This document shows, piece by piece, positions 1 through 13,186 of a stretch of DNA of 64,000 bases (positions are counted from its first letter, which is position 1; each line of letters starts with the position of its first letter). A program made the position numbers and the translations under genes. The stretch comes from Myceligenerans salitolerans. GTDB lineage: Bacteria > Actinomycetota > Actinomycetes > Actinomycetales > Cellulomonadaceae. A model generated the notes under the pieces. The model worked only from the letters and a program-made list of their open reading frames with translations, searched no databases and was not told where the DNA came from. The stretch covers positions 1-64,000 of the forward strand of contig NZ_JAFMPK010000047.1 in NCBI RefSeq assembly GCF_017349295.1, given 5' to 3'.

Positions 1-26
1 GGGGCTTCCCCCTGAGTAGTGGACAC
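1..26. repeat. Left terminal inverted repeat of the IS3 element
   Basis: Starts GGGGCTTCCCCC and ends GTGGACAC. It matches the reverse complement of 1318-1343 at 23 of 26 positions. Because it starts at base 1, the true tip could lie just outside the window. Confidence 0.9.
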
Positions 27-73
27 GCGAGAGACTGGACCTGGTTTGGTCCGGAGGAAGCGAGTTCACCGTC

Positions 74-418
74 ATGGTGCGGAAGTTCTATCCGGAGGAG
101 TTCAAGGCCGACGCTGTCGAGCTGTACTCCTCCACGCCGGGGGCGACGATCAAGGAGATCGCTGCTGACCTGGGAGTTCACGAGGGAACCCTGTCGAGGT
201 GGTTGCAGGCCGCTGGTGTGACGTCGCCGACGGCGGCTGGTCGGGCCGATGACGGCGGTGGGTCGAGCGGGGCGGGGGTGCCTGAGACGGCGGCTGAGGA
301 GCTGGAGCGGCTGCGCGCGGAGGTCAAGCGGTTGCGGGCGGACAAGTCACTGCTGGAGACCGAGCGGGAGATCCTGCGCAAGGCGGCGAAGTATTTCGCG
401 GGCGAGACGACCTGGTGA
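74..418 (+). CDS. IS3-family transposase OrfA (DNA-binding subunit)
   Basis: This 114-residue protein has an N-terminal helix-turn-helix (about residues 5-50, including IKEIAADLGVHEGTLSRWL) that would recognise the element ends. A leucine-rich coiled coil follows (about 72-105, LERLRAEVKRLRADKSLLE) of the kind that lets OrfA and OrfAB oligomerise. The length is normal for IS3 OrfA proteins. The stop codon overlaps the GTG start of the downstream frame, which lies in the -1 frame. That arrangement fits either the -1 frameshift used by IS3 elements or translational coupling; I see no obvious A-rich slippery run near the overlap. Confidence 0.93.
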   Translation: MVRKFYPEEFKADAVELYSSTPGATIKEIAADLGVHEGTLSRWLQAAGVTSPTAAGRADDGGGSSGAGVPETAAEELERLRAEVKRLRADKSLLETEREILRKAAKYFAGETTW

Positions 419-1308
419 GCCGTTTCCAGTTCGTCGCCGAGTTCCATGACACCTACGGGGTGAAGCGGCTGTGTGAGGTCCTGCAGATCGGCAGGTCTTC
501 CTACTACAAGTGGCGTGATGGCGCTGATCGTCGGGCCGAGCGTGTGGCGGCGGACGCCGATCTGGCCGCGAAGGCGTCCGCGATCACCGCGCAGTTCGAT
601 GGGACCTATGGGTCCCCGCGGGTGACCGCTGAGCTGCGCGACGCCGGGGTCGTGGTGAACGCCAAGCGCGTGGCCCGGGTGATGCGCGAGCACGGGGTTG
701 TGGGGGTCCACCTGCGCAAGAAGGTCCGCACCACGGTCCCGGCCAAGGACGCCCCGAAGGTCCCTGACCTGCTAGAACGCGACTTCACGGCCGACGCGCC
801 GAACCGGAAGTACGTCGGTGACATCACCTACCTGCCGATCGGGGATGGGCAGTTCCTCTACTTGGCCACGGTGATCGACTGCTTCAACCGGCGCCTGGTC
901 GGCTGGCAGATCGCCGACCACATGCGCGACACCCTGGTCATCGAGGCCCTCGATGCGGCCGCCCGCGAACGAGGCTCGTTGGCTGGGGCGATTTTCCACT
1001 CCGACAACGGCCGTCAGTACTGCTCGGACGACTTCCTCGCCGCGGCCGGGCGGCACGGGTTGACCCTGTCACGCGGCGCGGTCGGGACCAGCGCCGACAA
1101 CGCGCTGGCCGAGAGCTTCAACGCCGCGCTCAAGCGCGAGACTCTCCAGGGTGAACGCCGCTGGAACGGGGCCCGGGAGTGCAGGAAGTCCGTGTTCCGG
1201 TGGGTCACCCGCTACAACACGCGACGACGACACTCCTACTGCGACTACATGAGCCCAATCGATTTCGAGAATACTCACCTCGCCACTACAATGCCGATTG
1301 CTGGTTAA
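415..1308 (+). CDS. IS3-family transposase OrfB (DDE integrase catalytic subunit)
   Basis: This 297-residue protein has the IS3 OrfB layout. An HTH_21-like N-terminal region (YGSPRVTAEL near residue 65) is followed by an rve integrase core. The DDE residues are visible: Asp in VGDITYLP, Asp in FHSDNGRQY and Glu in ADNALAESFNAALKRE. The usual HSDRGSQY box reads HSDNGRQY here, but the acidic residue is kept. The start is a GTG overlapping the OrfA stop by four bases. Nothing suggests decay. Confidence 0.95.
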   Translation: MSRFQFVAEFHDTYGVKRLCEVLQIGRSSYYKWRDGADRRAERVAADADLAAKASAITAQFDGTYGSPRVTAELRDAGVVVNAKRVARVMREHGVVGVHLRKKVRTTVPAKDAPKVPDLLERDFTADAPNRKYVGDITYLPIGDGQFLYLATVIDCFNRRLVGWQIADHMRDTLVIEALDAAARERGSLAGAIFHSDNGRQYCSDDFLAAAGRHGLTLSRGAVGTSADNALAESFNAALKRETLQGERRWNGARECRKSVFRWVTRYNTRRRHSYCDYMSPIDFENTHLATTMPIAG

Positions 1309-2961
1309 CACACCGAGGTGTCCACCATTCGGGGGGAAGCCCCACCGTACTGTTCGTCGCGTTGCATTGGTGGCCTCCACGTCGCATCGGCCGGGTGGGG
1401 TCTGCTGGTTGCGGGTGGCTTCCAGCTCGCCGGACAAGATCAGTTCAGCCAGCGTGTTCAGTTCCTGGTCGAGCGGGCGATCGACGTCAAGGAAGGTCAC
1501 GTGCTCGCGCACCAGAGTCCAGACCTCCTTGGTGGCTGGGCTGAGTCGGTCGACGCCGCGCAGTTCGACGGCCTGGCACAGTGCGTGCAGGACGGCGGCG
1601 GTCACGTGGGCTGTCAGTTCCACGACGGTCCGGGCGTCCCTGGCAGCGATCGATCCCATACTCACCTTGTCCTGGTTGTGCGCCTCGGTCGAACGTGAGA
1701 ACACGGTGGCCGGGCTCGCCTGTTTCAGGGCTTCGGCCGCGAATGATGAGCAGGCGATCTGCAGGCCCTTGTAGCCATGGGTGGTGCGTCCCTCGGGGAC
1801 CAGGTTGGGCGGCAGGCCGCCGCTGAGTTTTTCGTCCACGACCTGGGCCAGTTGGCGGTCCAGCAGATCGGCGATGCTGGCCAGCGCAACCTTGAGGGAA
1901 TCCATTGCCTGGGCGATATGGCCGCCGTAGAAGTTCCCGCCGGAGAACACCTCCCCTGAGCCGGTGTCGAACAGAGGGTTGTCGTTGGCAGAGTTGATCT
2001 CTCGCTCCACCCAAGGCTCTGCCCATGCCAGCGTGTCGTGTAGCACTCCGATCACCTGGGGAGCGCAGCGCACCGAGTACCGATCCTGGACCCGGCGCTC
2101 CACCGCCGGCGATCCGATGCGGTCCTCGATCGCCGACACCCCGGTAAGCGCCGAGCCGGTCAGGAGCCGGTGAATGTGCGAGGCGCTGCCGGCCTGGCCG
2201 GGGTGAGGCTTGTGCTCGCCGAGGAACGCCGCGAAGTGATGCCCGTTGCCGCCAAGCGCCTGCGAGGCCAGGGCAGTGCAGACCTCAGCGGCGAACGCGA
2301 GCCGATGGGCGTCGTGGACCGCCAGCGCCGCGTAGGCGGTCATGAAAGAGGTGCCGTTGACCAGCGCCAAGCCCTCCTTGGCGCGTAGCACCAGAGGCTG
2401 GAGGCCGCAGGCGCGCAGGGCTTCGGCGGCGGGCACGGTCTCGCCCCGGTGCCGCGCTGATCCCTCGCCGACGAGGGCAGCGGCGAGATAGCTCGACGGC
2501 ACCAGATCGCCACTGGCGCCGACCGATCCTCGCTCGGGCACCTCGGGCAGTAGGTCGTGCTCGAGAAGCCCGACCAGCAGCTCGGCGACCTCCGGCCGGG
2601 TGCCGGATACGCCCCGAGCCAGGCAGTTGGCTCGGATGGCGATCATCGCGCGGACCACCTCGTCGGGACAGCGGGAACCGGCGCCGGTCAGGAGGAACTG
2701 AATGAGGCCGTCCTGCAGCGTACCCGTCTGACCGGCGCTGACCACCCGATGGGCGCTGTCACCGAACCCCGTGGTGACGCCGTAGATAACCGCACCTTCA
2801 TCTACCAGCCGATCCTTCAAGCCGGCGCTGGCGCTCATCCGCCCGGTGCTCTGGGGATCGAGGGTGACGTGGGTGTGGGAAGGATCGCGGGCGAGCCGGG
2901 CCAGTGCGGCCACGTCGAGCGTGAAACCATCGATGAGCACTGTGGGCCTGTCGTCGCGCAA
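1069..2961 (-). CDS. MIO-dependent aromatic amino acid ammonia-lyase/2,3-aminomutase, C-terminus replaced by IS sequence
   Basis: This protein belongs to the HAL/PAL/TAM family, which eliminates or shifts the alpha-amino group of aromatic amino acids with a 4-methylideneimidazole-5-one cofactor. The cofactor triad Ala149-Ser150-Gly151 lies in GSVGASGDLVP. Also present are the catalytic Tyr60 loop (YGVTTGFG), NGTS, NSANDNPLF, and the HNQDKVSMGSIAARDA segment. The substrate-pocket pair is Phe89-Leu90 (LIQFLLTG), as in plant phenylalanine lyases, not the Ser-His of bacterial tyrosine aminomutases or histidine lyases. Residues 1-539 are native; after base 1343 about 90 codons run antisense through the IS element. 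Known aminomutases of this family are about 530-540 residues, so little native sequence may be lost. The start is TTG at 2961, with GTG at 2940 possible. It is divergent from the NRPS genes and probably feeds them. Confidence 0.85.
   Translation of the reverse strand: MRDDRPTVLIDGFTLDVAALARLARDPSHTHVTLDPQSTGRMSASAGLKDRLVDEGAVIYGVTTGFGDSAHRVVSAGQTGTLQDGLIQFLLTGAGSRCPDEVVRAMIAIRANCLARGVSGTRPEVAELLVGLLEHDLLPEVPERGSVGASGDLVPSSYLAAALVGEGSARHRGETVPAAEALRACGLQPLVLRAKEGLALVNGTSFMTAYAALAVHDAHRLAFAAEVCTALASQALGGNGHHFAAFLGEHKPHPGQAGSASHIHRLLTGSALTGVSAIEDRIGSPAVERRVQDRYSVRCAPQVIGVLHDTLAWAEPWVEREINSANDNPLFDTGSGEVFSGGNFYGGHIAQAMDSLKVALASIADLLDRQLAQVVDEKLSGGLPPNLVPEGRTTHGYKGLQIACSSFAAEALKQASPATVFSRSTEAHNQDKVSMGSIAARDARTVVELTAHVTAAVLHALCQAVELRGVDRLSPATKEVWTLVREHVTFLDVDRPLDQELNTLAELILSGELEATRNQQTPPGRCDVEATNATRRTVRWGFPPNGGHLGVLTSNRHCSGEVSILEIDWAHVVAVGVSSSRVVAGDPPEHGLPALPGPVPAAFTLESLALERGVEALGQRVVGAGPDRAA
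1318..1343. repeat. Right terminal inverted repeat of the IS3 element
   Basis: Starts GTGTCCACC and ends GGGGGGAAGCCCC. It is the inverted partner of bases 1-26 with three mismatches. The base after it (1344) is the first base of the interrupted aminomutase-like gene. Confidence 0.9.
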
Positions 2962-3549
2962 CGTTCTACCGCCTCTGCCGAGTCAGTACTGATTGGGACT
3001 TCGGCGACAGTGCCGATTTATCCTACGGTCTTCCGTCCGCGAGCTTCAAGGGGACGCTGCCCTGGCCGGGCGAGGAGTGCGACGTGATCGACCCCGGATC
3101 CTGCTGCACGCGGCCCGATGAAGAGGACTACCACGGCTCCAGATCCGCCCGGCGGCATGGGGGACCCGCCCGAGAGGGCGTGTGCCGCCGTTCTCGTTGC
3201 TCACGGGTGTGATGAGGGGCCACGGGCCACGCTCCCTCGGATCCGATGTGCCGGGAGCCGGGAAAGGTTCATGTCCCGCCCGCAGACCGGTCCGGCCGGT
3301 ACTTGCGCGGCGACATGGCCCCAAATGAGCGACCGGCCGGGGCGACGTGGGCTTGCGCGATCTGTCCGTAAAGTCTGCGCATTCTGTCTTGTCTCGCCTG
3401 CTCGCGCGTCGCGATGCTGGGAGCCGCGCCTGTGGGACCGGCGCACGGATCCGGGGGGATCGGCGGCAGGAGCCGCGATGTGCACCCGCTGTCTCGCCCA
3501 AGTGCCCGCCTCCGTTCGGGGAGCGGCAGACACGAAGGGAAAGCGATAC
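2962..3549. other. Divergent intergenic region between the MIO enzyme and the NRPS operon
   Basis: These 588 bases should hold the promoters of both divergent units. A perfect 10-bp palindrome, TCAGTACTGA, lies at 2983-2992, about 20 bases upstream of the MIO start. It shares the ACTGA/TCAGT half-sites, in the opposite arrangement, with the operator candidate at 13323. An open frame continues upstream of the adenylation gene (from 3118), but it has no recognisable domain and poor start signals, so I do not count it as coding. No RNA gene is apparent. Confidence 0.5.
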
Positions 3550-5340
3550 ATGAGAACGCAGAGCGTCACTGTGACCGGCATGCTCGCAGCCAGGGCGCAG
3601 GAACGGCCCGAGGCAACCGCGATCGAGCTCGTTGGTGCGGGAGGACTCAGCTATGCAGCGTGGAATCAGCGTGCCCGCGCCGTCGGTCATGGCCTGATCG
3701 CCAGGGGTGTGCAGCCTGGTGACCGTGTCGTGGTCCAAGCTTCGGGTGACTGGATCGCTTTCGCGATCGGATACGTCGGGGTGCAGGCCGCCGGGGCGAT
3801 CGCTGTTCCCGTCCTGGCATCCGGTGGTGATGAGCACATTGCTCGCGTCCATGCGGAGGCGGGGGCGGTCGGTGTCATCGCGCATGCGCCCGTGGGCGGG
3901 TGCCCGGGGTGGTCCCAGGCGGTCCACGAGATCGAGGCGGGCCAGCCAAGTGGACCGACCGGGGTGGAGGTCCGTGGCGAGGACGACGCGGAGATCCTCT
4001 TCACCTCCGGAACGACCGGGCGGCCCAAGGGCGTCGTGTCCACGCACGACAACCTCACGCACGCGGTCCGCGAGCGTGGTGGAGGCGTGTCGGCGCCGCT
4101 CGCGGCGGTGCGTTCCGTGCTGCATGCGTTGCCGCCCGCGTCGAATGCGGGGCAGAGCCTGATGGTGCAGACGCTCAGCGCCGTGCCGCACACGATGATC
4201 GTGCCCGAGAAGTTCGATGCCGAGGGTTTCCTGGACATCGCGCAGGAGTCCAGGCCGGACGATGTGGTGCTGGTTCCCGCACATGCGCTGGCGCTGTTGC
4301 GTGTCAAGGCGCGGTTCGACCTGAGCGGCGTACGGCAGGTGCGGACCACGAGCGCGCCCATCTCGGCCGCGACGCTGGCCCGGCTCGCGGAATTGTTCCC
4401 GGAAGCGAGCATCGTCAACATGTACACCTCGACCGAGAGCTGGCCGGCGCGTCTGCGGATGCGTTTCGACCTGGATCGGCCGTTCTCCCTCGGCCGGGCA
4501 CACGGCGGCAGCGAGGTGCGCATCGTCGACGAGGCCGGTGAGCCGGTCCCGGCCGGCGTGTCGGGCTCCGTGCAACTGCGGGCAGAGGGGGTACGTCCGC
4601 GCCGCTACTGGAACGACACAGGTGCAAGCACGAGCGTCTTCGGGGCGGGCCAGTGGGTGAGCACAGGCGATATAGGCCGTCTTGACGACGCGGGGTACTT
4701 CTACCTGGAAGACCGCAGCGCCGACACGGTGAACGTCGGCGGGCGCAATGTGTCGACCCTTGCCGCGCAGGGTGTGCTGGAGGAGCATCCTGACGTGGAA
4801 GAGGCGGCCGCGTTCGGCCTGCCGCATCCGACACTCGGGGAGTACCTGATCGCCGCGGTGATCGGTTCCGACGACCTCGACTCCGACCAGGTTCGTTCGT
4901 TCGCCGCTGCGCGGTTGGGGGAGGCCGACGCGCCAAAGCGCGTGGTCCGGGTCGAGCGGTTTCCCCGCAACGTGCTGGGCAAGGTCGTCAAGCGTGAACT
5001 GATCGAGTCGATGTCCGCGCTGCTCGCCCAGCATGGCGATCACGACGAGATGGCCAGTGATACGGAACGCGCGGTGGCGGCCATCTGGGCGCGGGTGCTG
5101 GACGTGGCCCCCGCCATGATCGGCCCGGGAGCCGAGTGGGTATCGTTGGGCGGATCCTCTCTCGAGGCAGCGGAGGTCGCGTTGCTCGTCAGTGATGAAC
5201 TCGGGCGCGAGGTGCCCGAGAGGGCACTGAACGTCAACCCGACCGTGCGCGCCTTCGCCGCTGTGGTGGACGGGGCGCCGCTCGTGAACGACGGCGAGCT
5301 GCGGTCCATCAGGCGTGTCTCCCGCGGGGCGGCAGGATGA
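3550..5340 (+). CDS. NRPS adenylation-thiolation didomain protein (loading module)
   Basis: This 596-residue protein would activate a carboxylic acid as acyl-AMP and load it on its own carrier domain. Adenylation motifs are A3 FTSGTTGRPKG (151-161), A5 NMYTSTES (290-297), A7 STGD (371-374) and A10 NVLGKVVKR (474-482, catalytic Lys). The C-terminal carrier domain carries the phosphopantetheine serine in LGGSS (Ser537). In the A4 region the sequence LPPASNAG places Asn near the position of the alpha-amino-binding Asp of ordinary A domains, as in aryl-acid enzymes such as DhbE. This suggests a substrate without a normal alpha-amino group, such as cinnamate or a beta-amino acid. The ATG at 3550 follows GAAGGGAAAG and starts at the domain edge. 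The stop overlaps the next gene by four bases. Confidence 0.88.
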   Translation: MRTQSVTVTGMLAARAQERPEATAIELVGAGGLSYAAWNQRARAVGHGLIARGVQPGDRVVVQASGDWIAFAIGYVGVQAAGAIAVPVLASGGDEHIARVHAEAGAVGVIAHAPVGGCPGWSQAVHEIEAGQPSGPTGVEVRGEDDAEILFTSGTTGRPKGVVSTHDNLTHAVRERGGGVSAPLAAVRSVLHALPPASNAGQSLMVQTLSAVPHTMIVPEKFDAEGFLDIAQESRPDDVVLVPAHALALLRVKARFDLSGVRQVRTTSAPISAATLARLAELFPEASIVNMYTSTESWPARLRMRFDLDRPFSLGRAHGGSEVRIVDEAGEPVPAGVSGSVQLRAEGVRPRRYWNDTGASTSVFGAGQWVSTGDIGRLDDAGYFYLEDRSADTVNVGGRNVSTLAAQGVLEEHPDVEEAAAFGLPHPTLGEYLIAAVIGSDDLDSDQVRSFAAARLGEADAPKRVVRVERFPRNVLGKVVKRELIESMSALLAQHGDHDEMASDTERAVAAIWARVLDVAPAMIGPGAEWVSLGGSSLEAAEVALLVSDELGREVPERALNVNPTVRAFAAVVDGAPLVNDGELRSIRRVSRGAAG

Positions 5341-6686
5341 ACCAGCTGCACACCGCCACGCACTATCAACGTTCCCTTTACAACGCGACGGGCGGGCAGG
5401 CGTCCGGCGTCAACGTCGGCGCCGCCATCCGGATGCGCGGCCCCGTCGACCCTGAGCGCATTCGCGGGGCGCTGGACGCGCTCACAGCCCGGCACGAGGC
5501 CTTGCGCACGACGCTGATGCGGCAGGACACCACCGACACCGCACATCAGGTCATCAGCGATCAGTTTCCGCTGGAATTGCGCGAGGTCAGCGTTCCCGAG
5601 CCCGACGAGGAGCAGCGGGAGACAACCTATGCCGCGCTCCTGCAAGCGGAGCTGCGGCGGCCGTTCGTGCTGGAGAGCAGCCCTCTTGCCCGGGCAGCGT
5701 TGGTGACACTCGCACACGACGACCAGGTGTTCGCGTTGATCGCGCACCACGCAGTCATGGACGGCTGGTCCGCCGGCGTGATTCGCGACGAGTTCCCGCG
5801 CCTGTACGAGTACGGCACGAGCGCGGCGCTTGCGCCTCCCATGCTTCATCTCGTCGACTACGCCATGTGGGAGGCCGGGCTGGCCGACGACCCGGCCACG
5901 CGAGAGCATTGGCGCGCGGCTCTGGCCGATGCCAGCCCTCGTCTCACCTTCCCGCCCGGGATGCCGGCCATCGGGGCCATCGTCCGCACCACACCGCATC
6001 CGCTCCCACTTGACCAGGGTCCGACGCTCAGCGCGTTCCGTTCGCTCATGGTCGCCGAGCAGGCGAGCCCCACCGCCGTCCTGTTGGCTGCGCTGGCAGC
6101 GTCCTTGAGCGATCACGCGACGAGCGAGAGGATCACGTTCGGCGTCATGCGGTCAAACCGCCAGCAGCGAGATATCCGCGGCACGGTCGGGTTCCTCGCC
6201 GGGCACGTTCCGGTCACGGTGGACCTGTCCGGCGACCCGTCGTGCGAGACGCTGGTCGGCCGTACGGCCCATGCCTACGACCGGGCGATATCGCGCCCGG
6301 CACCGCTCAGCGTGCTGCGTTCGGCACTGCCCGATAACCGCCCAGGACCGTTGTTCGACGTGTCGCTGAACTACAGCCACCAGCAGGCGCGCCACCAGAC
6401 GGACGCGATCGTGATGAGCGGCGGGGTCATGTTCTCCCCGTTCGACCTCGCGCACTCCGAGCCGACGGAGCACCCCTGGTGGGACGGGGCCTCGCTGCTG
6501 GACTTCCAGATCAGATCCGATCCGGCCGGGAGGCTCTCCGGAACCCTCGTGGCAGATGCCCACATGTTCGGTGGCACGCCGGCGGCGCGGTTCGGTGAGC
6601 GTTTCGCCGCCGCGCTACGCGGGTTCGCCGATCGCCCCACGGATCGCCTCAGCGATCTTCTCACCCCGAAGGAGTGGGCCCTGTGA
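5337..6686 (+). CDS. Free-standing NRPS condensation-domain protein 1
   Basis: This 449-residue protein covers one condensation domain and no other module. The catalytic motif HHAVMDG lies at 137-143 with the second His and the Asp intact. The C5-like segment is RDIRGTVGFLAGHVPV. Condensation domains form amide bonds between carrier-bound acyl and aminoacyl groups, so this one would use the acyl group held by the preceding thiolation domain. It starts at an ATG overlapping the preceding stop (ATGA) and ends overlapping the next start, so translation of the three genes is coupled. It could also transfer to a free amine, since no partner module is visible. Confidence 0.85.
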   Translation: MNQLHTATHYQRSLYNATGGQASGVNVGAAIRMRGPVDPERIRGALDALTARHEALRTTLMRQDTTDTAHQVISDQFPLELREVSVPEPDEEQRETTYAALLQAELRRPFVLESSPLARAALVTLAHDDQVFALIAHHAVMDGWSAGVIRDEFPRLYEYGTSAALAPPMLHLVDYAMWEAGLADDPATREHWRAALADASPRLTFPPGMPAIGAIVRTTPHPLPLDQGPTLSAFRSLMVAEQASPTAVLLAALAASLSDHATSERITFGVMRSNRQQRDIRGTVGFLAGHVPVTVDLSGDPSCETLVGRTAHAYDRAISRPAPLSVLRSALPDNRPGPLFDVSLNYSHQQARHQTDAIVMSGGVMFSPFDLAHSEPTEHPWWDGASLLDFQIRSDPAGRLSGTLVADAHMFGGTPAARFGERFAAALRGFADRPTDRLSDLLTPKEWAL

Positions 6687-8113
6687 GCACGGACGCGAGC
6701 ATGGAGGCGGATCCCACTATTGCTGCGCATACCAATGCTGTGGACGCCACCGAGGCCGGGACAGGCGTGTTACCGGTCACCTATCTCCAGCAGGAGTGGG
6801 TCGAGGCGGTCGGTGGAGACCAGTCCAATCACAACATCCCGCACGCCATCGAGATCACGGGGCCCTTGCGCCTGGGCGACCTTGCCGCCGTGCTGGCGGC
6901 ACTGGTGGAACGTCACGAGACCATGCGCATGGCGTTCACCCGTACCAAGACCGGGATCGCGCAGCACGTCATCGCACCGTTCGACCCCGCGTGGAGTTTC
7001 GAAGACCTCTCAGGCCTTCCGCAGCCGGCGCAGCGCGCCGCGCTGGAACACCTCGCGGTCGAACGTTGCGAGCAGATGATCGACCTCTTCGCTCCACCGC
7101 TCTGGTCGGCGGTGCTGGCCCGGCTGAGCTCTGACCGCCACGTCCTGCTGACCATCTGGCACCACGCCGTGTTCGACGGATGGTCCAACGCGGTGTTCTT
7201 CCGCGAATTCCACCAGCTCTACCGCGCCCGGCTCGACCCCAGCCGCCCGCCCACACCAGCAGCGACGATCCACCCCGGCGACTACGCCGCGCACGAGAGG
7301 TCCATCGGCCTCGGGGAGCATACGCAGTTCTGGCGCGGACAGTTCCCGGCCGATCCGCCACGCCTACCTGCAGAGCCCGGCGTGCAGAGCGGCCCGCTGT
7401 GGCTGCAGGCCCACCCACTCCCGCGGATCGGGAGAGACACGGTCAGCGCGCTGCTGCGGCTCGCCGCACAGCGCGGTGCCAGACCCGGCAGCGCCATGCG
7501 CGCCCTGGTCCTGGCCTCACTCGCGCCCTACCTCGGCAACCACGTGATGATCGGGAGCGTCACCGCCAACCGGGACGCCCCCGAACTGACACACATCATC
7601 GGCCTCTTGAGTGACCACGTGCCCGTCCGGGTCGACCTGCGCGGTGGGCCATCGTTCGACGAACTCGTGGTGCGCGTCCAGGAAGCGACCAGACAGGCGC
7701 ACCTGCACCGCGTCCCGGTCGGGGTACTGCGTCGCGAGCTACCGCTGGCGGCTCAGGAGGACGGTTCGTTGTTCGACATATCGGTCAACTACATGCCGCA
7801 TACTCCTGGCAAGATCGCAACGGTTACGGCACAGGACGGCAGCCGCCTTACGATGCGGCCCGAGACGCTGCCCACCAACCTGCTCCGGCCGAGGATGAGA
7901 TCAGCATTCAGCGGCGCCGTGAGTCTCGGGTTCCAGCTGCGCCATGCGCACGAGGGTCATATTTCCGGTGACCTGTGGGCGCATCACCCGGCATTCACCA
8001 CAAGGACCCTCGACCAGCTGTGCCGAAACCTCCCCCGCACGGCGCAGGCAGTACTCGCCGATCCTCAGTGCCGAATTCAGGACCTTGCCGCCAAGGGGGC
8101 GGCTCGGGATTGA
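6683..8113 (+). CDS. Free-standing NRPS condensation-domain protein 2
   Basis: The 476-residue product is a second condensation-family protein with the catalytic motif HHAVFDG at 160-166. The start is taken as GTG at 6683, which overlaps the previous stop and has AAGGAG at 6669-6674 with eight-base spacing. The N-terminal ~25 residues are a non-conserved extension before PVTYLQQEW. It differs strongly from the first condensation protein, so the two are not a recent duplication. Two condensation proteins for one visible carrier imply additional carriers encoded elsewhere, perhaps beyond the IS element, or release by condensation with a soluble nucleophile. Confidence 0.85.
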   Translation: MSTDASMEADPTIAAHTNAVDATEAGTGVLPVTYLQQEWVEAVGGDQSNHNIPHAIEITGPLRLGDLAAVLAALVERHETMRMAFTRTKTGIAQHVIAPFDPAWSFEDLSGLPQPAQRAALEHLAVERCEQMIDLFAPPLWSAVLARLSSDRHVLLTIWHHAVFDGWSNAVFFREFHQLYRARLDPSRPPTPAATIHPGDYAAHERSIGLGEHTQFWRGQFPADPPRLPAEPGVQSGPLWLQAHPLPRIGRDTVSALLRLAAQRGARPGSAMRALVLASLAPYLGNHVMIGSVTANRDAPELTHIIGLLSDHVPVRVDLRGGPSFDELVVRVQEATRQAHLHRVPVGVLRRELPLAAQEDGSLFDISVNYMPHTPGKIATVTAQDGSRLTMRPETLPTNLLRPRMRSAFSGAVSLGFQLRHAHEGHISGDLWAHHPAFTTRTLDQLCRNLPRTAQAVLADPQCRIQDLAAKGAARD

Positions 8114-8131: not shown

Positions 8132-8764
8132 TTACGTCTCGAGCGCAAGCCGCTGCTGGGCCGCCCACGCCTTCGCGGTCTCGGCGACCGGGAGTTCGGG
8201 GTCCAGTAGCCAGGCGGTCTCCAGGCCGTTGACAAAGGCGATGATCTCGATGGCCTTCAGATGGGTGTCGACGTCGGCTCGAACCTCACCGCGGTCTTGG
8301 GCGGCCGCGAGCACCGCGCCAAGCCGGTCGGCCGTCAAGTGGTATCGGCTGGTCAGCCGAGGGTGGAGGACGCCGTCCTCGCCGAGGTTCTCGACAACCA
8401 GCACCGTGTGCATGCCTACCGCGTGTGAATGGCTGGCCCATCGGGTGACGTTGTCCGCGATGACATCGAGAATGCCCAGACCTGCGTCGGCGTCGTGCCA
8501 CAGCACCTCGTCCTCGTCCTCGTCGCGGCGATCCAACACCGCATTGAGCAGCGCCTCCTTGCTCGGGTAGTGGTAGAGGAGGCCGCTTTGCGAGACCCCC
8601 GCCGCGGTGGCGATCTGCGCGAGATTGGTGCCACGGGATCCGTTGCGGGCCACGAGCCGGGTCGCGGCATCGACGATCAGCTGCCTGCGGGCCTCGCCCT
8701 TCGCGGACAAGGTCTTCGTGACGCCGCCCGGCTCCTGCGTCGCTTGATGGTCATCCCGTCTCAT
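8132..8764 (-). CDS. TetR/AcrR-family transcriptional regulator
   Basis: This 210-residue protein has an N-terminal TetR helix-turn-helix (about residues 25-72, IATAAGVSQSGLLYHYPSKE) and a helical ligand-binding C-terminal half. It is convergent with the NRPS operon (18-bp gap) and lies just downstream of the leftward esterase/ABC-transporter operon. The 16-bp palindrome at 13323-13338 before that operon is a plausible target. An internal GTG (codon 15) could be an alternative start. Ligand unknown. Confidence 0.88.
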   Translation of the reverse strand: MRRDDHQATQEPGGVTKTLSAKGEARRQLIVDAATRLVARNGSRGTNLAQIATAAGVSQSGLLYHYPSKEALLNAVLDRRDEDEDEVLWHDADAGLGILDVIADNVTRWASHSHAVGMHTVLVVENLGEDGVLHPRLTSRYHLTADRLGAVLAAAQDRGEVRADVDTHLKAIEIIAFVNGLETAWLLDPELPVAETAKAWAAQQRLALET

Positions 8765-8841: not shown

Positions 8842-9672
8842 TCACTTGACAGCTCCTTGCAGGAGGGCCTTCACGAAGTGGCGCTGAAGGATCAGGAATA
8901 CCGCCAGGGACGGGGCGATGATCAACAATGAACCGGCGCACAGGAGAGCGATGTTGGTGCCATGTTCACCCTGGAAAGCTCCCAGGCCACCGGCAACGGT
9001 ACGCATGGATGGGTCATCGATGAGCACGAGTGGCAGCAGGTACTGGTTCCAGGTCGCGAGGAAGAACAAGATCGTGAGTGCCGACAAGGCGGGCACCGCC
9101 AGTGGTAGCTGGATCCGGCGGAAGATCTGCCATGCGCTGGCGCCGTCGAGCTTGGCAGCCTCCGTGAGGGCCGTCTCGGCCTTGAGGAAGCTTGCTCGCA
9201 TCCAGAACACGCCGAAGGGCATGAGCAGCCCGATGAGCGGCAGGATGACAGCCCAGCGCGAGCCGAGCAGCCCCATGTCGCGAAGGTTGTAGTAGAGGGG
9301 TGTGATGAGCGCTTCGAACGGCAGGGTCAGGCCGACCAGCAGGATGGCATTGATGAGGCGGCCGCCGGGCACGGCAAGCTGCGCCAGGCCGTATCCGGCC
9401 GCGGTGGCCATCGCGACGGCAGCAGGAACGACCCCTAGCACGATCAGGACGCTCGACTGGAACAGAGTGAGAAAGTTCGCTGCGGTCCATGCGTCGACGA
9501 AGTTGTGCCACTGAGGATCCGCGGGCCAGGCAAGCCCGGGAGGCGTGCTGTTCTGTGGCGCGAGCGCCGCGGTGAACATGCTGAGCAGCGGGATGACCGC
9601 GAACATCATCAGCGCCATCAGGATGGCGACGCGAGAGATGCGGTCGACGAGGGTTGACGAGGCGGCGCTCAT
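8842..9672 (-). CDS. Carbohydrate ABC transporter permease (MalG-like)
   Basis: A 276-residue inner-membrane protein with six predicted transmembrane stretches. The first is near residues 12-35 (ILMALMMFAVIPLLSMFT). The cytoplasmic EAA loop reads TEAAKLDGASAWQIFRRI; it docks to the shared ATPase. It belongs to the MalG/CUT1 family and would pair with the permease encoded immediately upstream, whose stop overlaps its ATG by four bases. No ATPase gene is nearby, which is common in actinobacteria where one MsiK-type ATPase serves many sugar importers. Confidence 0.9.
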   Translation of the reverse strand: MSAASSTLVDRISRVAILMALMMFAVIPLLSMFTAALAPQNSTPPGLAWPADPQWHNFVDAWTAANFLTLFQSSVLIVLGVVPAAVAMATAAGYGLAQLAVPGGRLINAILLVGLTLPFEALITPLYYNLRDMGLLGSRWAVILPLIGLLMPFGVFWMRASFLKAETALTEAAKLDGASAWQIFRRIQLPLAVPALSALTILFFLATWNQYLLPLVLIDDPSMRTVAGGLGAFQGEHGTNIALLCAGSLLIIAPSLAVFLILQRHFVKALLQGAVK

Positions 9673-10751
9673 TCGTGCCTCCCGATTCGTTGAATGGGCC
9701 AGATGACGAGCAGCACGAGGGCCGCGAGGAAAACGGCGAGAGCTGAGGCCTGCCCGACCTGCTGCTCCAGGAAGGTGAGCCGGTAGATCTCGACGCCCGG
9801 CACCATCGTCTGATAGCCAGGTCCGCCCTGGGTGGCGATCTGGACGACGTCGAAGCTGGCCAGGGCCGCGATCGTCGTGATCGTCGCGCAGACGGCGATC
9901 TCTTGACGAAGCCCAGGCAGCGTGACTGCGAAGAACTCGCCGACGCGGCCGGCCCCGTCCAGGCGGGCCGCCTCATACAGCGATGGGTCGATCTTCCCGA
10001 TACCCGACAGCAGCAGCACGGTGCAGAAGCCGAGTGACAGCCAGAAGCCGATGATGCCGACGGCCGGCAACGCGAACGTGAAGTCTCCGAGCCACGCGCG
10101 TGTGAAGGACTCCAGGCCGACCGCCCTGAGGGACTGGTTGACGAGCCCGTCGGTGGAGAACATCCACGTCCACGCGATGCCGGCCGCCACCGGCGGCAGC
10201 ACCTGCGGGATGAACAGCACGACCCGAGCCGCAGTGTTGAACGGACCCACCCGAAGCTCTCGGATCAAGCTCGCGGCGACAAGCCCGATACTGACCGGCA
10301 GCACGGTGTAGAAGAGGATGAGGACGAACGCGTGGATCACCGATCCGAACAGCTCGGGCTCGGTGAAGATGGCCTTCCAGTTGTCCAGCCCCGCAGGCGT
10401 TGCCGGCCCGATGCCGTCCCACTCGTAGAACGAGAACTGCACGGACTGGCCCAGCGGATACAGCACGAACACGGCATACATGACCAGCGCCGGCGCCACC
10501 CACACCACACCGCTCCATCGGTCTGCGCGACGCCGTCGGCGGGCCGGGCGTGGCACGGGGAGCGACTTTCGGGAGTCGAGATCGGGCTCCACGAAACTCG
10601 GCTTCTTCACCACCTTGCCGGTTGATGCCGTTGCTGCGTTCAGTGTCATGGCTCCGCCCGTGGAAATCTTCGTGGTGGCGCCGGTCTGCTGTGCGTCTGC
10701 GGTTCTCGGCGGAGCGTGACGGGCGTTCGGGTGCCTACTGTTCGGTGTCAT
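9669..10751 (-). CDS. Carbohydrate ABC transporter permease (MalF-like)
   Basis: Membrane subunit of the importer, with an EAA loop YEAARLDGAGRVGEFF. The 360-residue reading starts at 10751 and overlaps the binding-protein gene by 17 bases. Its first ~90 residues are hydrophilic and arginine-rich, so the internal ATG at 10649 (326 residues) is an equally reasonable start. The first membrane segment begins at about residue 83 (GVVWVAPALVMYAVFVLY). It should form a heterodimer with the downstream permease. Confidence 0.88.
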   Translation of the reverse strand: MTPNSRHPNARHAPPRTADAQQTGATTKISTGGAMTLNAATASTGKVVKKPSFVEPDLDSRKSLPVPRPARRRRRADRWSGVVWVAPALVMYAVFVLYPLGQSVQFSFYEWDGIGPATPAGLDNWKAIFTEPELFGSVIHAFVLILFYTVLPVSIGLVAASLIRELRVGPFNTAARVVLFIPQVLPPVAAGIAWTWMFSTDGLVNQSLRAVGLESFTRAWLGDFTFALPAVGIIGFWLSLGFCTVLLLSGIGKIDPSLYEAARLDGAGRVGEFFAVTLPGLRQEIAVCATITTIAALASFDVVQIATQGGPGYQTMVPGVEIYRLTFLEQQVGQASALAVFLAALVLLVIWPIQRIGRHE

Positions 10752-12102
10752 TTTCGTAGTCCTCCTGGAGCGCCGCAGAGAACTCGGACGGCGACGTCTT
10801 TCCCGCCACGAGAAGTTGCGTCTGCGGGATCAGGGTGTTCGCATGCATCGACGCCGTCGAGTTCGACATGAAGTCGACGAGGCCGTCGCTCTCCAGCAGC
10901 GTCTGAAATGACTCGACGGTGGCTGCGACAAGGGATCCAGGCTCCGAGTCGGGCATGGGCGCGTCCGCGGGCCCGGCGGGCGGGAGCCCGAGAAGATCCA
11001 GGGTGCTCTGGCGGGCTTCGGCATCTGTCTGGATGAAGTTCAAGAACGCAGCTGCCGCATCGGGCTCGGAGGACCTGGCAGGAATGGCCAGGACGCCGGC
11101 GGCGGTCATCGCGGTGAAGGGATCACCGGCCTCCTCGGGCGGGAAGAGGAAGAACCCGATCTCGCCGCGGCCTGTTTCCTGAAGCGTTGGCGCCTGCCAG
11201 TTCCCGCTCGGGAAGAAAACGCCCTCGCCCTGCGCGAACCTGGCGGGAGCCTGTGTCTGATCGATGCTGTTGACGTCGTCGGGCAGATATCCCTTCGCCC
11301 CCCATCGTTGAAGCGTCGTGGCGGCCTCGACCAGCGCGGACGTGTCGATGTCCGCGCCCGGCTTGTTGTAATTCCAGTCCTGGATCACCTGTGTGCCGCC
11401 CGCATAGTTCATTTGGAGGTTCTGCAGCGGATACGCCAGTCCGCCGTCCTTGCCGTTGACCATGATCGGCAGGAGACCCGCGCTCTTCGCCTCGTCCAGA
11501 CTCCGCTCGAGGTCGCCGAGCGTGGCCGGCGGCTCGGTCATCCCGATCTGGGCCGCAAGTTCCTTGTTGTAGTACACGCCCGTCAACCCGAAACCAGGTC
11601 CGGCGCCGTACAGATGCCCGGTGCCACGCTGACGACCGTCATCGGCGACACGGGTGGAAGCGAACTGCGACTGCGGCCACTCGGTCCATCCGTATGCCTC
11701 GGCGTACGGATCCAGATCGGTCAGGAGATGGTCCTTGACCAGGTTGCCGAAGGACGCGAGCCGGACCAGGTCCGGCACCTCGGTGCCGGAAATCAGGCGG
11801 GGCACGTTGGTCGTGAGATTGTTGAAGTCCTCGCCGGTCACCTCCACCGTGACATTGGGATGCTCGGCATGGAAGGCGGCGCCGAGTTCCTCGTACAGCG
11901 GCACATCCGGTGTCGACACAAGCACCTCGACAGTGACCGGCGCGTCACCGATGCTCGTGCTCACGGCTGCTGGCGTGACAGGCGGAGCACTCGGCGTGCC
12001 CGGGGCAGCGCACGATGCCACGAGGGCGGCAAGTAGGGCGGGCAGGATGAATGGGGCGACAGCCCGCCGACGTCGCCGAGACTGAGCATTGCTGGTACGC
12101 AT
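10735..12102 (-). CDS. Extracellular solute-binding lipoprotein of a sugar ABC transporter
   Basis: This 455-residue protein is the substrate-binding component of the importer. It has an arginine-rich n-region, a hydrophobic stretch and a lipobox LVASC with Cys31 as the acylation site. The mature part has SBP_1 (MalE-like) features, such as the YYNKELAAQIG segment where such proteins grip sugars. The ATG at 12102 is preceded by GAGGAG. It is the second gene of the leftward esterase/binding protein/permease/permease unit. Substrate unknown; the adjacent esterase suggests an acylated or ester-linked carbohydrate. Confidence 0.92.
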   Translation of the reverse strand: MRTSNAQSRRRRRAVAPFILPALLAALVASCAAPGTPSAPPVTPAAVSTSIGDAPVTVEVLVSTPDVPLYEELGAAFHAEHPNVTVEVTGEDFNNLTTNVPRLISGTEVPDLVRLASFGNLVKDHLLTDLDPYAEAYGWTEWPQSQFASTRVADDGRQRGTGHLYGAGPGFGLTGVYYNKELAAQIGMTEPPATLGDLERSLDEAKSAGLLPIMVNGKDGGLAYPLQNLQMNYAGGTQVIQDWNYNKPGADIDTSALVEAATTLQRWGAKGYLPDDVNSIDQTQAPARFAQGEGVFFPSGNWQAPTLQETGRGEIGFFLFPPEEAGDPFTAMTAAGVLAIPARSSEPDAAAAFLNFIQTDAEARQSTLDLLGLPPAGPADAPMPDSEPGSLVAATVESFQTLLESDGLVDFMSNSTASMHANTLIPQTQLLVAGKTSPSEFSAALQEDYENDTEQ

Positions 12103-12211: not shown

Positions 12212-13186
12212 TCAGGTGTTGATCGCCGAACTCGCGCGATCCGATTCCTGATTGGCGAACGCCTGCCGTAGTGCCGAGCCGGCCTTGTCGACGGCGTCTG
12301 CCGCGTCCGGCATGACGCCGAGCTTCTCGATGAACCCGTGGATCTGACCGGCGTAGTCGTGGATCTCGACAGCGACCTGATCCCTGCGCAACCGCCGGGC
12401 GTACTCGATGGCCTCCCCACGCAAGAAGTCGTGCTCGGCGGTGATCACGATCGCGGGAGAGACACCGCGCAACGTCTCGGCATGCAATGGCGAGGCGAGG
12501 GGAGACCGCCGCATCAGCTCGTCCGGGACGTAGGCGTCCCACAGATACGCGATCCGCTCATACGTGGTCCTGCCGTAGTCGCCACGGCCTGCGAAATCCG
12601 AATACGACTCCACGAAGCGGAGCTTGGTCGTGGTGTCCATGGTGCTGTCCAGCACCGGGTACACCAACAGCTGCAGCGTCAGATCAAGCTGGACGTCCCT
12701 GGCTCTGAGGGCGGCCGCTGCCGCGAGGTTTCCGCCCGCGCTGTCACCCCCGACCGCAACCCTGGAGAAGTTCTGCCGGGCCCAGCTGATGGCGGCCCAT
12801 GTGTCGTCGAATGCCGCCGGAAATGGGTGCTCGGGCGCGAGCCGGTAGTCGATCGTGAGGACGGCACATGCGGCACGGTTCGCCAGGGCACGCGCGACCC
12901 CTTCGCAGGCGTCCAGGTCGCCCAGCATCCAACCGCCGCCATGCATCCAGACCAGAACGTCCTCTTCGCCGCCGTGCGGCCGGTAGAGCCTCGAGGAAAC
13001 ACCCCCGGCGTCGACCGTCTCCACGGAGGCCACGTGCTCGAGCGGGCCACGGCAGGCCAGCGCGTGATCGTGGGCCTGCTTGCGCAGTGCGGCGATGTCG
13101 CGACCCCAGTAGTTCACCTGAGGTGCGAGAGACTCGAAATACCTGCGCACCTGCGCGCTAGGTACTGGGGAAATCGGCGTCGTCAT
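12212..13186 (-). CDS. Alpha/beta hydrolase of the hormone-sensitive-lipase (HSL) esterase family
   Basis: A 324-residue cytoplasmic esterase. The oxyanion-hole motif is HGGGW, the nucleophile elbow is GDSAGG, the acid lies in TAEHDFLRGE and the histidine in GQIHGFIE. The start at 13186 is chosen because AAGGAGGAG lies just upstream and the longer reading adds only unrelated residues. It is the first gene of the transporter operon, suggesting hydrolysis of the imported ester. No signal peptide. Confidence 0.9.
   Translation of the reverse strand: MTTPISPVPSAQVRRYFESLAPQVNYWGRDIAALRKQAHDHALACRGPLEHVASVETVDAGGVSSRLYRPHGGEEDVLVWMHGGGWMLGDLDACEGVARALANRAACAVLTIDYRLAPEHPFPAAFDDTWAAISWARQNFSRVAVGGDSAGGNLAAAAALRARDVQLDLTLQLLVYPVLDSTMDTTTKLRFVESYSDFAGRGDYGRTTYERIAYLWDAYVPDELMRRSPLASPLHAETLRGVSPAIVITAEHDFLRGEAIEYARRLRRDQVAVEIHDYAGQIHGFIEKLGVMPDAADAVDKAGSALRQAFANQESDRASSAINT

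Follow-up and report, generated by a model that had tools for sequence, protein, structure and literature searches.

We analysed the first 64,000 nucleotides (the window) of a contig of Myceligenerans salitolerans (NZ_JAFMPK010000047.1; contig C42 of genome G000 in our numbering), which belongs to a 4.58-Mb genome. Close to the contig start lies a compact locus of four genes. A gene for an ammonia-lyase of the 4-methylideneimidazole-5-one (MIO) type (1345..2961, minus strand; PF00221) diverges from three genes on the plus strand, which encode an acyl-AMP ligase with a fused carrier (the adenylation-thiolation or A-T didomain, 3550..5340; PF00501, PF13193, PF00550) and two free-standing condensation (C) proteins, C1 (5337..6686; PF00668) and C2 (6674..8113; PF00668). 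The start of C1 overlaps the stop of A-T, and C2 as listed overlaps the end of C1. With this divergent order and with its signature motifs intact, the locus proposed in a preliminary description of the same DNA was found to be real.

The MIO enzyme

The native MIO protein has 539 amino acids and belongs to the MIO family by its match to PF00221 (E=5.3e-162) and its MIO triad ASG at residues 149-151; it also has an NQD motif. The ortholog in Myceligenerans pegani TRM65318 (G001) is intact, equally 539 amino acids long and 89% identical. Family models were used to place the protein more closely. The top score was obtained with the BagA/FevV tyrosine ammonia-lyase model NF041222 (581 bits, below the cut-off of 1000 bits). 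Two histidine lyase models gave 442 and 452 bits (below cut-offs of 539 and 524), a phenylalanine lyase model 378 bits, and the aminomutase models for phenylalanine (TIGR04475) and tyrosine (TIGR03832) gave 362 and 358 bits, with cut-offs of 800 and 501. The protein is not a BagA/FevV member proper, as its score is under the cut-off and its selectivity pair is Phe-Leu and not Tyr-His.

The selectivity pair Phe89-Leu90 had been named in the preliminary description, and our alignment confirmed it. Phe stands at the His89 position and Leu at 90, as expected for a phenylalanine-selective enzyme, and the two residues align with His-Leu of 2o6y and with Phe-Leu of 2o78, presumably the H89F variant. 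We take a Ser-His pair together with a QED segment to be features of histidine ammonia-lyases, and both were also seen in the histidine-lyase-like rows here. Histidine ammonia-lyase was rejected as an identity for the protein (pair FL, segment NQD, scores under the cut-offs), as was tyrosine aminomutase (358 bits being under 501, and the pair not Ser-His).

The alignment and tree contained 24 BagA-type rows: the window protein, that of M. pegani, 21 matches (L057 among them) found in 18 of the 297 genomes in the family of genome G492, and one protein (L058) from a class sample of 296 genomes, three of which matched, counting that of the window. Six distant MIO proteins were added. Tyr-His was found in 15 of the BagA-type rows, Phe-Leu in four (the window, L026 of M. 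pegani, L057 and L105) and Gly-His or Gly-Phe in another four (L098, L100, L101, L103); the last, L093, was retained in the tree with its pair unaligned. The sole row above the BagA cut-off was L086 (1145 bits), which has Tyr-His and is 53% identical to the window protein. All six distant rows have Ser-His, and one of them, L002, exceeds the tyrosine aminomutase cut-off. Nearest in the tree to the two Myceligenerans proteins was L105 (Phe-Leu, 53% identical, support 0.964). Since Phe-Leu occurs at two places in the tree (the window with M. pegani and L105, and L057), the pair does not mark a clade.

Previously, a His89Phe exchange was shown to change the substrate of a tyrosine lyase from tyrosine to phenylalanine (PMC9002059, PMC8773403; papers are cited here by PubMed Central number and from excerpts of their text), and Tyr occupies the selectivity position in the lyase of Streptomyces clavuligerus, which is called a true tyrosine lyase (PMC8773403). 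Based on this published switch, and on Phe-Leu where most BagA-type rows have Tyr-His, the enzyme is most likely a phenylalanine ammonia-lyase giving cinnamate. Phenylalanine rather than tyrosine or histidine as its substrate, as first proposed, is supported. The sequence does not decide with certainty between lyase and mutase activity, an outcome that has been linked to loop flexibility (PMC9002059).

Other relatives of the MIO gene were seen in varied surroundings (here and below, gene labels without a Pfam or NCBIfam match were given by eye on the output of a rough codon-composition gene caller). The stretch that holds the L105 gene (L106, G1066:C58, 9534-13348) had no match to A-T, C1 or C2. 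A Phe-Leu relative, 54% identical, lies in a nonribosomal peptide synthetase (NRPS) region (L060, G492:C19, 11496-15985) with an acyl-CoA-ligase-like gene directly after it and MbtH-like and alpha/beta-hydrolase-like reading frames; this region is a candidate cinnamoyl-starter cluster. In a third stretch (L062, G960:C458, 7778-12856), a Tyr-His relative adjoins phenylacetate-CoA-ligase-like and asparagine-synthetase-like genes.

The acyl-activating didomain and the condensation proteins

The A-T protein matched AMP-binding (E=4.9e-51), AMP-binding_C and PP-binding, the last with LGGSS; its residue numbers follow the translation P0002, which starts one codon before the gene at 3550. The Asn of LPPASNAG (Asn200) had been placed near the Asp of amino-acid-activating domains, and the alignments put it exactly there. 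Asn200 was aligned with the Asp of linear gramicidin synthase in the printed alignments, and MAFFT placed it on the Asn of Escherichia coli K-12 EntE and on the Asp of an amino-acid domain from a more distant genome (G379); it is invariant in the five A-T orthologs. The protein thus has the Asn235 of DhbE and EntE and has neither the Asp235 of alpha-amino-acid domains nor that of beta-amino-acid domains (VinN D230, equal to GrsA D235). In VinN and in engineered TycA, the beta-amino group is bound by the same Asp, HitB has beta-type motifs, and DhbE is without such an Asp (PMC11253843). The text of that paper gives Asp235 for EntE, where the K-12 sequence has Asn. We dropped the idea that VinN Asp230 and GrsA Asp235 occupy different alignment positions on the strength of the same paper.

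This exchange supports the earlier suggestion that the activated acid has no alpha-amino group. An amino acid of either type is an unlikely substrate, and beta-phenylalanine in particular, the other acid put forward in the preliminary description, is disfavoured because Asn replaces the Asp that alpha- and beta-amino-acid domains, VinN and HitB among them, keep (PMC11253843).

The best NCBIfam matches of the protein were fatty-acyl-CoA ligases, and the best solved relatives of the A-domain part were, in order, FadD5, oxalyl-CoA synthetase, a fatty acid CoA ligase, FadD13 and 4-coumarate ligase. These matches would suit a fatty or dicarboxylic acid, and the best solved match of the whole didomain, linear gramicidin synthase, an ordinary alpha-amino acid; in either case the MIO gene would merely be a neighbour. 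We consider this explanation very unlikely; the evidence against it concerns the alpha-amino acid, which is opposed by Asn in place of Asp235 and by the score of 135 bits with the amino acid adenylation model TIGR01733 (cut-off 317).

The ten pocket positions, for which we assumed the GrsA numbering, were inferred from the alignment as N200, A201, S204, H246, R266, T268, M292, P300, A301 and K479. Nine of them are constant in the five orthologs, and position 246 is His, His, Phe, Tyr and Tyr. AlphaFold2 models built from five-row alignments were unusable, with a mean predicted local distance difference test score of 33.7 for A-T and 32.2 for C1. Two matches to the phosphopantetheinyl transferase (PPTase) family were found in the genome.

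C1 and C2 matched PF00668 at E=3.6e-47 and 1.2e-44 and are 30% identical to each other. Both are single-domain proteins with HHxxxDG intact (HHAVMDG in C1, HHAVFDG in C2), in agreement with the description of two stand-alone condensation proteins. With a five-ortholog profile, the best single-domain solved match of C1 was SgcC5 (4ZNM, E=2.5e-29), which covered residues 27-434 of 449 and came third after Txo1 and bacitracin synthase. The match of C2 to 4ZNM was weaker (1.1e-16). VibH (1L5A) matched C2 weakly (3.7e-08) and was outside the C1 matches at 1e-5. Neither protein has the (D/H)HxxxDS motif of the fatty-acid-amide condensation enzymes of the OaaC clade, in which Gly at that motif place is found in just 17% (PMC13142362).

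The presence of two such proteins bears on an alternative that assigns phenylalanine aminomutase activity to the MIO enzyme. Beta-phenylalanine would be loaded; while it is carrier-bound, its amine would be acylated by C1, and C2 would release it with an amine. C1 does resemble SgcC5, whose acyl donor is a carrier-bound beta-amino acid. Two condensation proteins would also suit a carrier-bound unit having both an amine and a thioester, for which congocidine offers a precedent (PMC4047045). However, Asn200 stands here in place of the Asp with which VinN and HitB hold the beta-amino group (PMC11253843), and both aminomutase models scored under their cut-offs (362 and 358 bits against 800 and 501). 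We regard this alternative as unlikely.

Flanking genes and distribution among relatives

The MIO and A-T genes share a divergent intergenic region (2962..3549, unstranded). Both of its end blocks are conserved with M. pegani in the alignment, and its middle is longer in the window. No sigma-70-type match was found in this region, and the promoter and repeat scans gave no promoter-like site, one terminator-like site and one palindrome.

On the other side, five genes on the minus strand follow C2: a TetR-family regulator (8132..8764; PF00440), two permeases of an ATP-binding cassette (ABC) importer (8842..9672 and 9669..10751; both PF00528 and syntenic), a sugar-type solute-binding lipoprotein with orthologs (10735..12102; PF13416/PF01547) and a syntenic hormone-sensitive-lipase-type alpha/beta hydrolase, hereafter the esterase (12212..13186; PF07859, E=1.8e-63). 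The esterase scored 253 bits with the LipP1 model (cut-off 350). This set was absent from the preliminary description, and it is tied to the synthetase more firmly than the MIO gene is.

Among 149 relatives, A-T was found at E<=1e-60 in two genomes, the window's own included, and a BagA-type MIO gene in the same two. In a phylum sample searched at E<=1e-65, 2 of 396 genomes had A-T: the window's own and G379 (38%). The G379 protein (37-38% identical) has multi-domain NRPS proteins as neighbours, and the 32 kb of sequence retrieved there contained no MIO match. C1 was found at E<=1e-40 in 5 of 397 relatives, namely the two Myceligenerans, Promicromonospora sp. MEB111 (G555), Promicromonospora sp. 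AC04 (G567) and G549, which is of the genus group of the latter two. Nineteen named loci had C1 relatives; three were orthologs (M. pegani, sp. AC04 and sp. MEB111), L041-L056 matched at 26-34%, and in flanks of up to 10 kb a MIO match was present in the M. pegani locus alone (L038, the same as G001). A-T, C1 and C2 occur together in all five genomes, with the TetR regulator near C2 and, on the same side, the importer (permeases and binding protein) and the esterase; in sp. AC04, about 6 kb of other genes lie between C2 and the regulator.

A further genome of the window's genus group (G086), which was not among the A-T matches at E<=1e-60 in the 149 relatives, has kept the importer, regulator and esterase (81-90% identical). 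The last 206 residues alone remain of its C2, adjoining a ParB-like gene (L084, G086:C5, 11569-13013). A similar gene was seen upstream of A-T in sp. AC04 (L023:12989-14347), and this region is a possible recombination unit. The binding protein was detected at E<=1e-80 in 21 of 149 genomes, being 86-100% identical in the two Myceligenerans and G086 and 35-45% identical in the other 18.

The contig begins with an IS3-family insertion sequence (IS; 1..1343, plus strand) with orfA at 74-418 and the transposase gene orfB at 415-1308 (PF00665 rve and HTH_21 matches). It is identical at 1343 of 1343 bases to the reverse complement of positions 1-1343 of contig C27, and it has inverted ends and a 3-bp target duplication, GGT. 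Contig C27 continues after its IS copy with GGTGAAGAAC; GGT hence stands on both flanks. The uninterrupted order in M. pegani, ACAGTACGGTGAAGAGC, agrees with the window flank and the C27 flank, the junction being pieced together from two contigs of a draft assembly. The insertion point is within the native MIO stop codon, which also places it directly behind codon 8 of an overlapping methyltransferase gene. The MIO reading frame as listed before, 1069-2961, therefore had the wrong end: in the window strain it extends 91 residues into the IS, and the native end is residue 539 at base 1345 (CGG, then TGA), as in the M. pegani protein.

The preliminary description had recommended a look at the genes beyond the IS. 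The gene found there encodes an S-adenosylmethionine-dependent methyltransferase (PF13489, E=3e-16); it is on contig C27 in the window strain and intact in M. pegani, where its frame overlaps the MIO 3' end. A convergent AraC-type regulator comes after it. In the window strain, the IS cuts the methyltransferase from its first seven codons, and it could start from an in-frame ATG or GTG inside the IS. As the methyltransferase was cut off from the lyase, the lyase arm may be altered in this strain. Copies of the same element were also seen at the ends of contigs C26, C27, C36, C40 and C43, so other genes of the assembly may be split likewise.

Another MIO gene was noticed outside the window, on contig C44 (72040-75216, minus strand; L111:10040-13216). 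In its open frame of 1058 amino acids, residues 52-445 form an amino-acid adenylation domain (214 bits, below the cut-off of 317) that is fused to a tyrosine 2,3-aminomutase (779 bits, above the cut-off of 501). Within 20 kb there are also a large polyketide synthase-like protein (C44:84407-89884), a thioesterase-like reading frame and a gene of the PPTase family, and by eye the region looks like an enediyne-type cluster. Long open frames round the same kind of MIO gene were also seen in G002 and G003.

Proposed acyl transfer and its meaning

We tentatively read the four genes as a compact acyl-transfer locus in which cinnamate from the MIO enzyme would feed A-T in the two Myceligenerans, and C1 and C2 would perform the transfer; we hold this to be slightly short of an even call. 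In the first step, L-phenylalanine would be deaminated to trans-cinnamate, as the family and residues of the MIO enzyme suggest. A-T would then adenylate a carboxylic acid with no amino group at the alpha or beta carbon (for the two Myceligenerans, cinnamate or a derivative made by the methyltransferase is most likely), and the acid would go onto the didomain's own carrier after phosphopantetheinylation. C1 and C2 may move the acyl group from the carrier to small soluble acceptors, an amine or an alcohol; with two positions of one acceptor, or two acceptors, a cinnamoyl amide or ester would result. More speculatively, the conserved importer, regulator and esterase might handle the product or its sugar-like acceptor. 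Cinnamate as the loaded acid in the two Myceligenerans is plausible. Both the predicted lyase activity and an A domain unlikely to take amino acids fit the cinnamate branch of the preliminary description and oppose its beta-phenylalanine branch.

Several observations weigh against this proposal. The MIO and A-T genes are on opposite strands. Three of the five genomes with A-T and both condensation proteins (G549, G555, G567) have no BagA-type MIO gene; their best MIO genes are 37-39% identical to the window's and look like histidine lyases (Ser-His, QED), and their A-T proteins are 77-83% identical and differ at one of the ten inferred pocket positions. L105, the nearest MIO relative in the tree, adjoins ThiF-like and nitroreductase-like genes and not NRPS genes. 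In A-T itself, the A5 motif is VNMYTSTESW and not the aryl-acid QQVxFMAEGL, and Tyr236 is replaced by Ala201; in the likeness to DhbE drawn earlier, the common Asn235 stood, but these two features did not. The top solved match of the full didomain comes from an amino-acid NRPS (linear gramicidin synthase, 3.7e-45), followed by FadD5 (9.6e-45). Because more genomes have the synthetase block than have the MIO gene beside it (three of the five lack the latter), the link from MIO to A-T is weak.

The same distribution suggests that the locus may consist of two independent arms, an explanation that we consider a serious possibility, if not a probable one. One arm would be A-T with C1, C2, the importer and the esterase, working as an acyl amide or ester synthase on a common acid of primary metabolism in all five genomes. 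The other would be a separate Myceligenerans cassette of MIO enzyme, methyltransferase and AraC-type regulator, which might, for instance, turn phenylalanine into cinnamate and then into a methylated compound. In the stretches retrieved around the synthetase block of the three Promicromonospora-group genomes, neither MIO nor methyltransferase was matched; these genomes are without a BagA-type MIO gene anywhere, and the genes upstream of A-T differ among them (by eye). MIO transcription is directed away from A-T, and since the MIO and methyltransferase frames overlap in M. pegani, these two genes form a unit of their own. On the other hand, among the 149 relatives the BagA-type MIO gene occurs only where A-T does (two of two), and conserved blocks lie in the intergenic region common to both genes; adjacency alone could explain either. 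Under the proposal of a cinnamate-fed locus, the Myceligenerans lineage would have recruited the lyase to feed A-T along with the His246 difference, to which we give not quite half of our belief.

The closest known systems share parts of this arrangement. In the beta-tyrosine unit of C-1027, we take SgcC4 to be the MIO enzyme, SgcC1 the A protein, SgcC2 the carrier and SgcC5 the free condensation enzyme. The window likewise combines MIO enzyme, A domain, carrier and free condensation proteins, and C1 matches the SgcC5 structure. However, its A domain and carrier are fused, its condensation proteins are two, Asn stands for Asp, and its MIO enzyme is of the lyase type. With the BagA/FevV-type lyases (bagremycin, ferroverdin, and Tal of S. 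clavuligerus), the MIO protein shares its group, the ASG triad and the EAHNQDKVSM segment, but it has Phe-Leu instead of Tyr-His and 581 bits instead of 1000 or more. Bagremycin is made with a lyase plus a ligase; that ligase and its ferroverdin counterpart, BagE and FevW, are phenylacetate-CoA-ligase-like, whereas that of the window is an A-T didomain (PMC6692506). The fatty acid amide synthases OaaA/OaaACP/OaaC of gut bacteria likewise have an acyl-activating A protein, a carrier and a free-standing condensation enzyme, which uses a free amine (PMC13142362). The window differs by HHxxxDG in place of (D/H)HxxxDS, the fused A-T, the second condensation protein and the MIO neighbour. In congocidine and pyrrolamide biosynthesis, the carrier Cgc19 (a peptidyl carrier protein) and two free condensation proteins, Cgc2 and Cgc16, are thought to act on a carrier-bound unit (PMC4047045). 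Compared by description only, the window is similar in its one carrier and two free-standing condensation proteins and different in that its A domain is fused to the carrier. DhbE and EntE share the Asn at the Asp235 position, but not Tyr236 or the A5 motif as noted above, and VibH is matched weakly by C2.

The earlier statement that no described cluster has exactly this architecture held in part. In the literature searched, which mostly excluded subscription journals, we found neither the exact combination of MIO, A-T and two condensation proteins nor a report of such a locus in Myceligenerans. However, a carrier with two free condensation proteins (PMC4047045) and an A protein with carrier and free condensation enzyme (PMC13142362) are known. 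The locus is a variant of known free-standing A/T/C acyl-transfer systems, a new arrangement of known parts.

One further idea, which we think quite improbable, is that the cinnamoyl-carrier and the two non-redundant free condensation enzymes make a small conjugate bearing two acyl groups, which would be exported, taken up again by the sugar-type ABC system and opened by the esterase. If true, this conjugate would be a shared metabolite of a kind other than siderophores, and genomes such as G086, with importer, regulator, esterase and a 206-residue C2 remnant, would be non-producing users.

Small systems of an A-T didomain and free condensation proteins make amides or esters from few genes and are easily reconstituted. 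The present one exists in nature both with a dedicated lyase and without, and the two forms differ at one pocket position (His246 against Phe or Tyr); they could reveal how systems of this type come to use a new acid. By synteny, a synthetase that is an orphan with regard to its product is linked to an importer and an esterase, which hints at what to seek.

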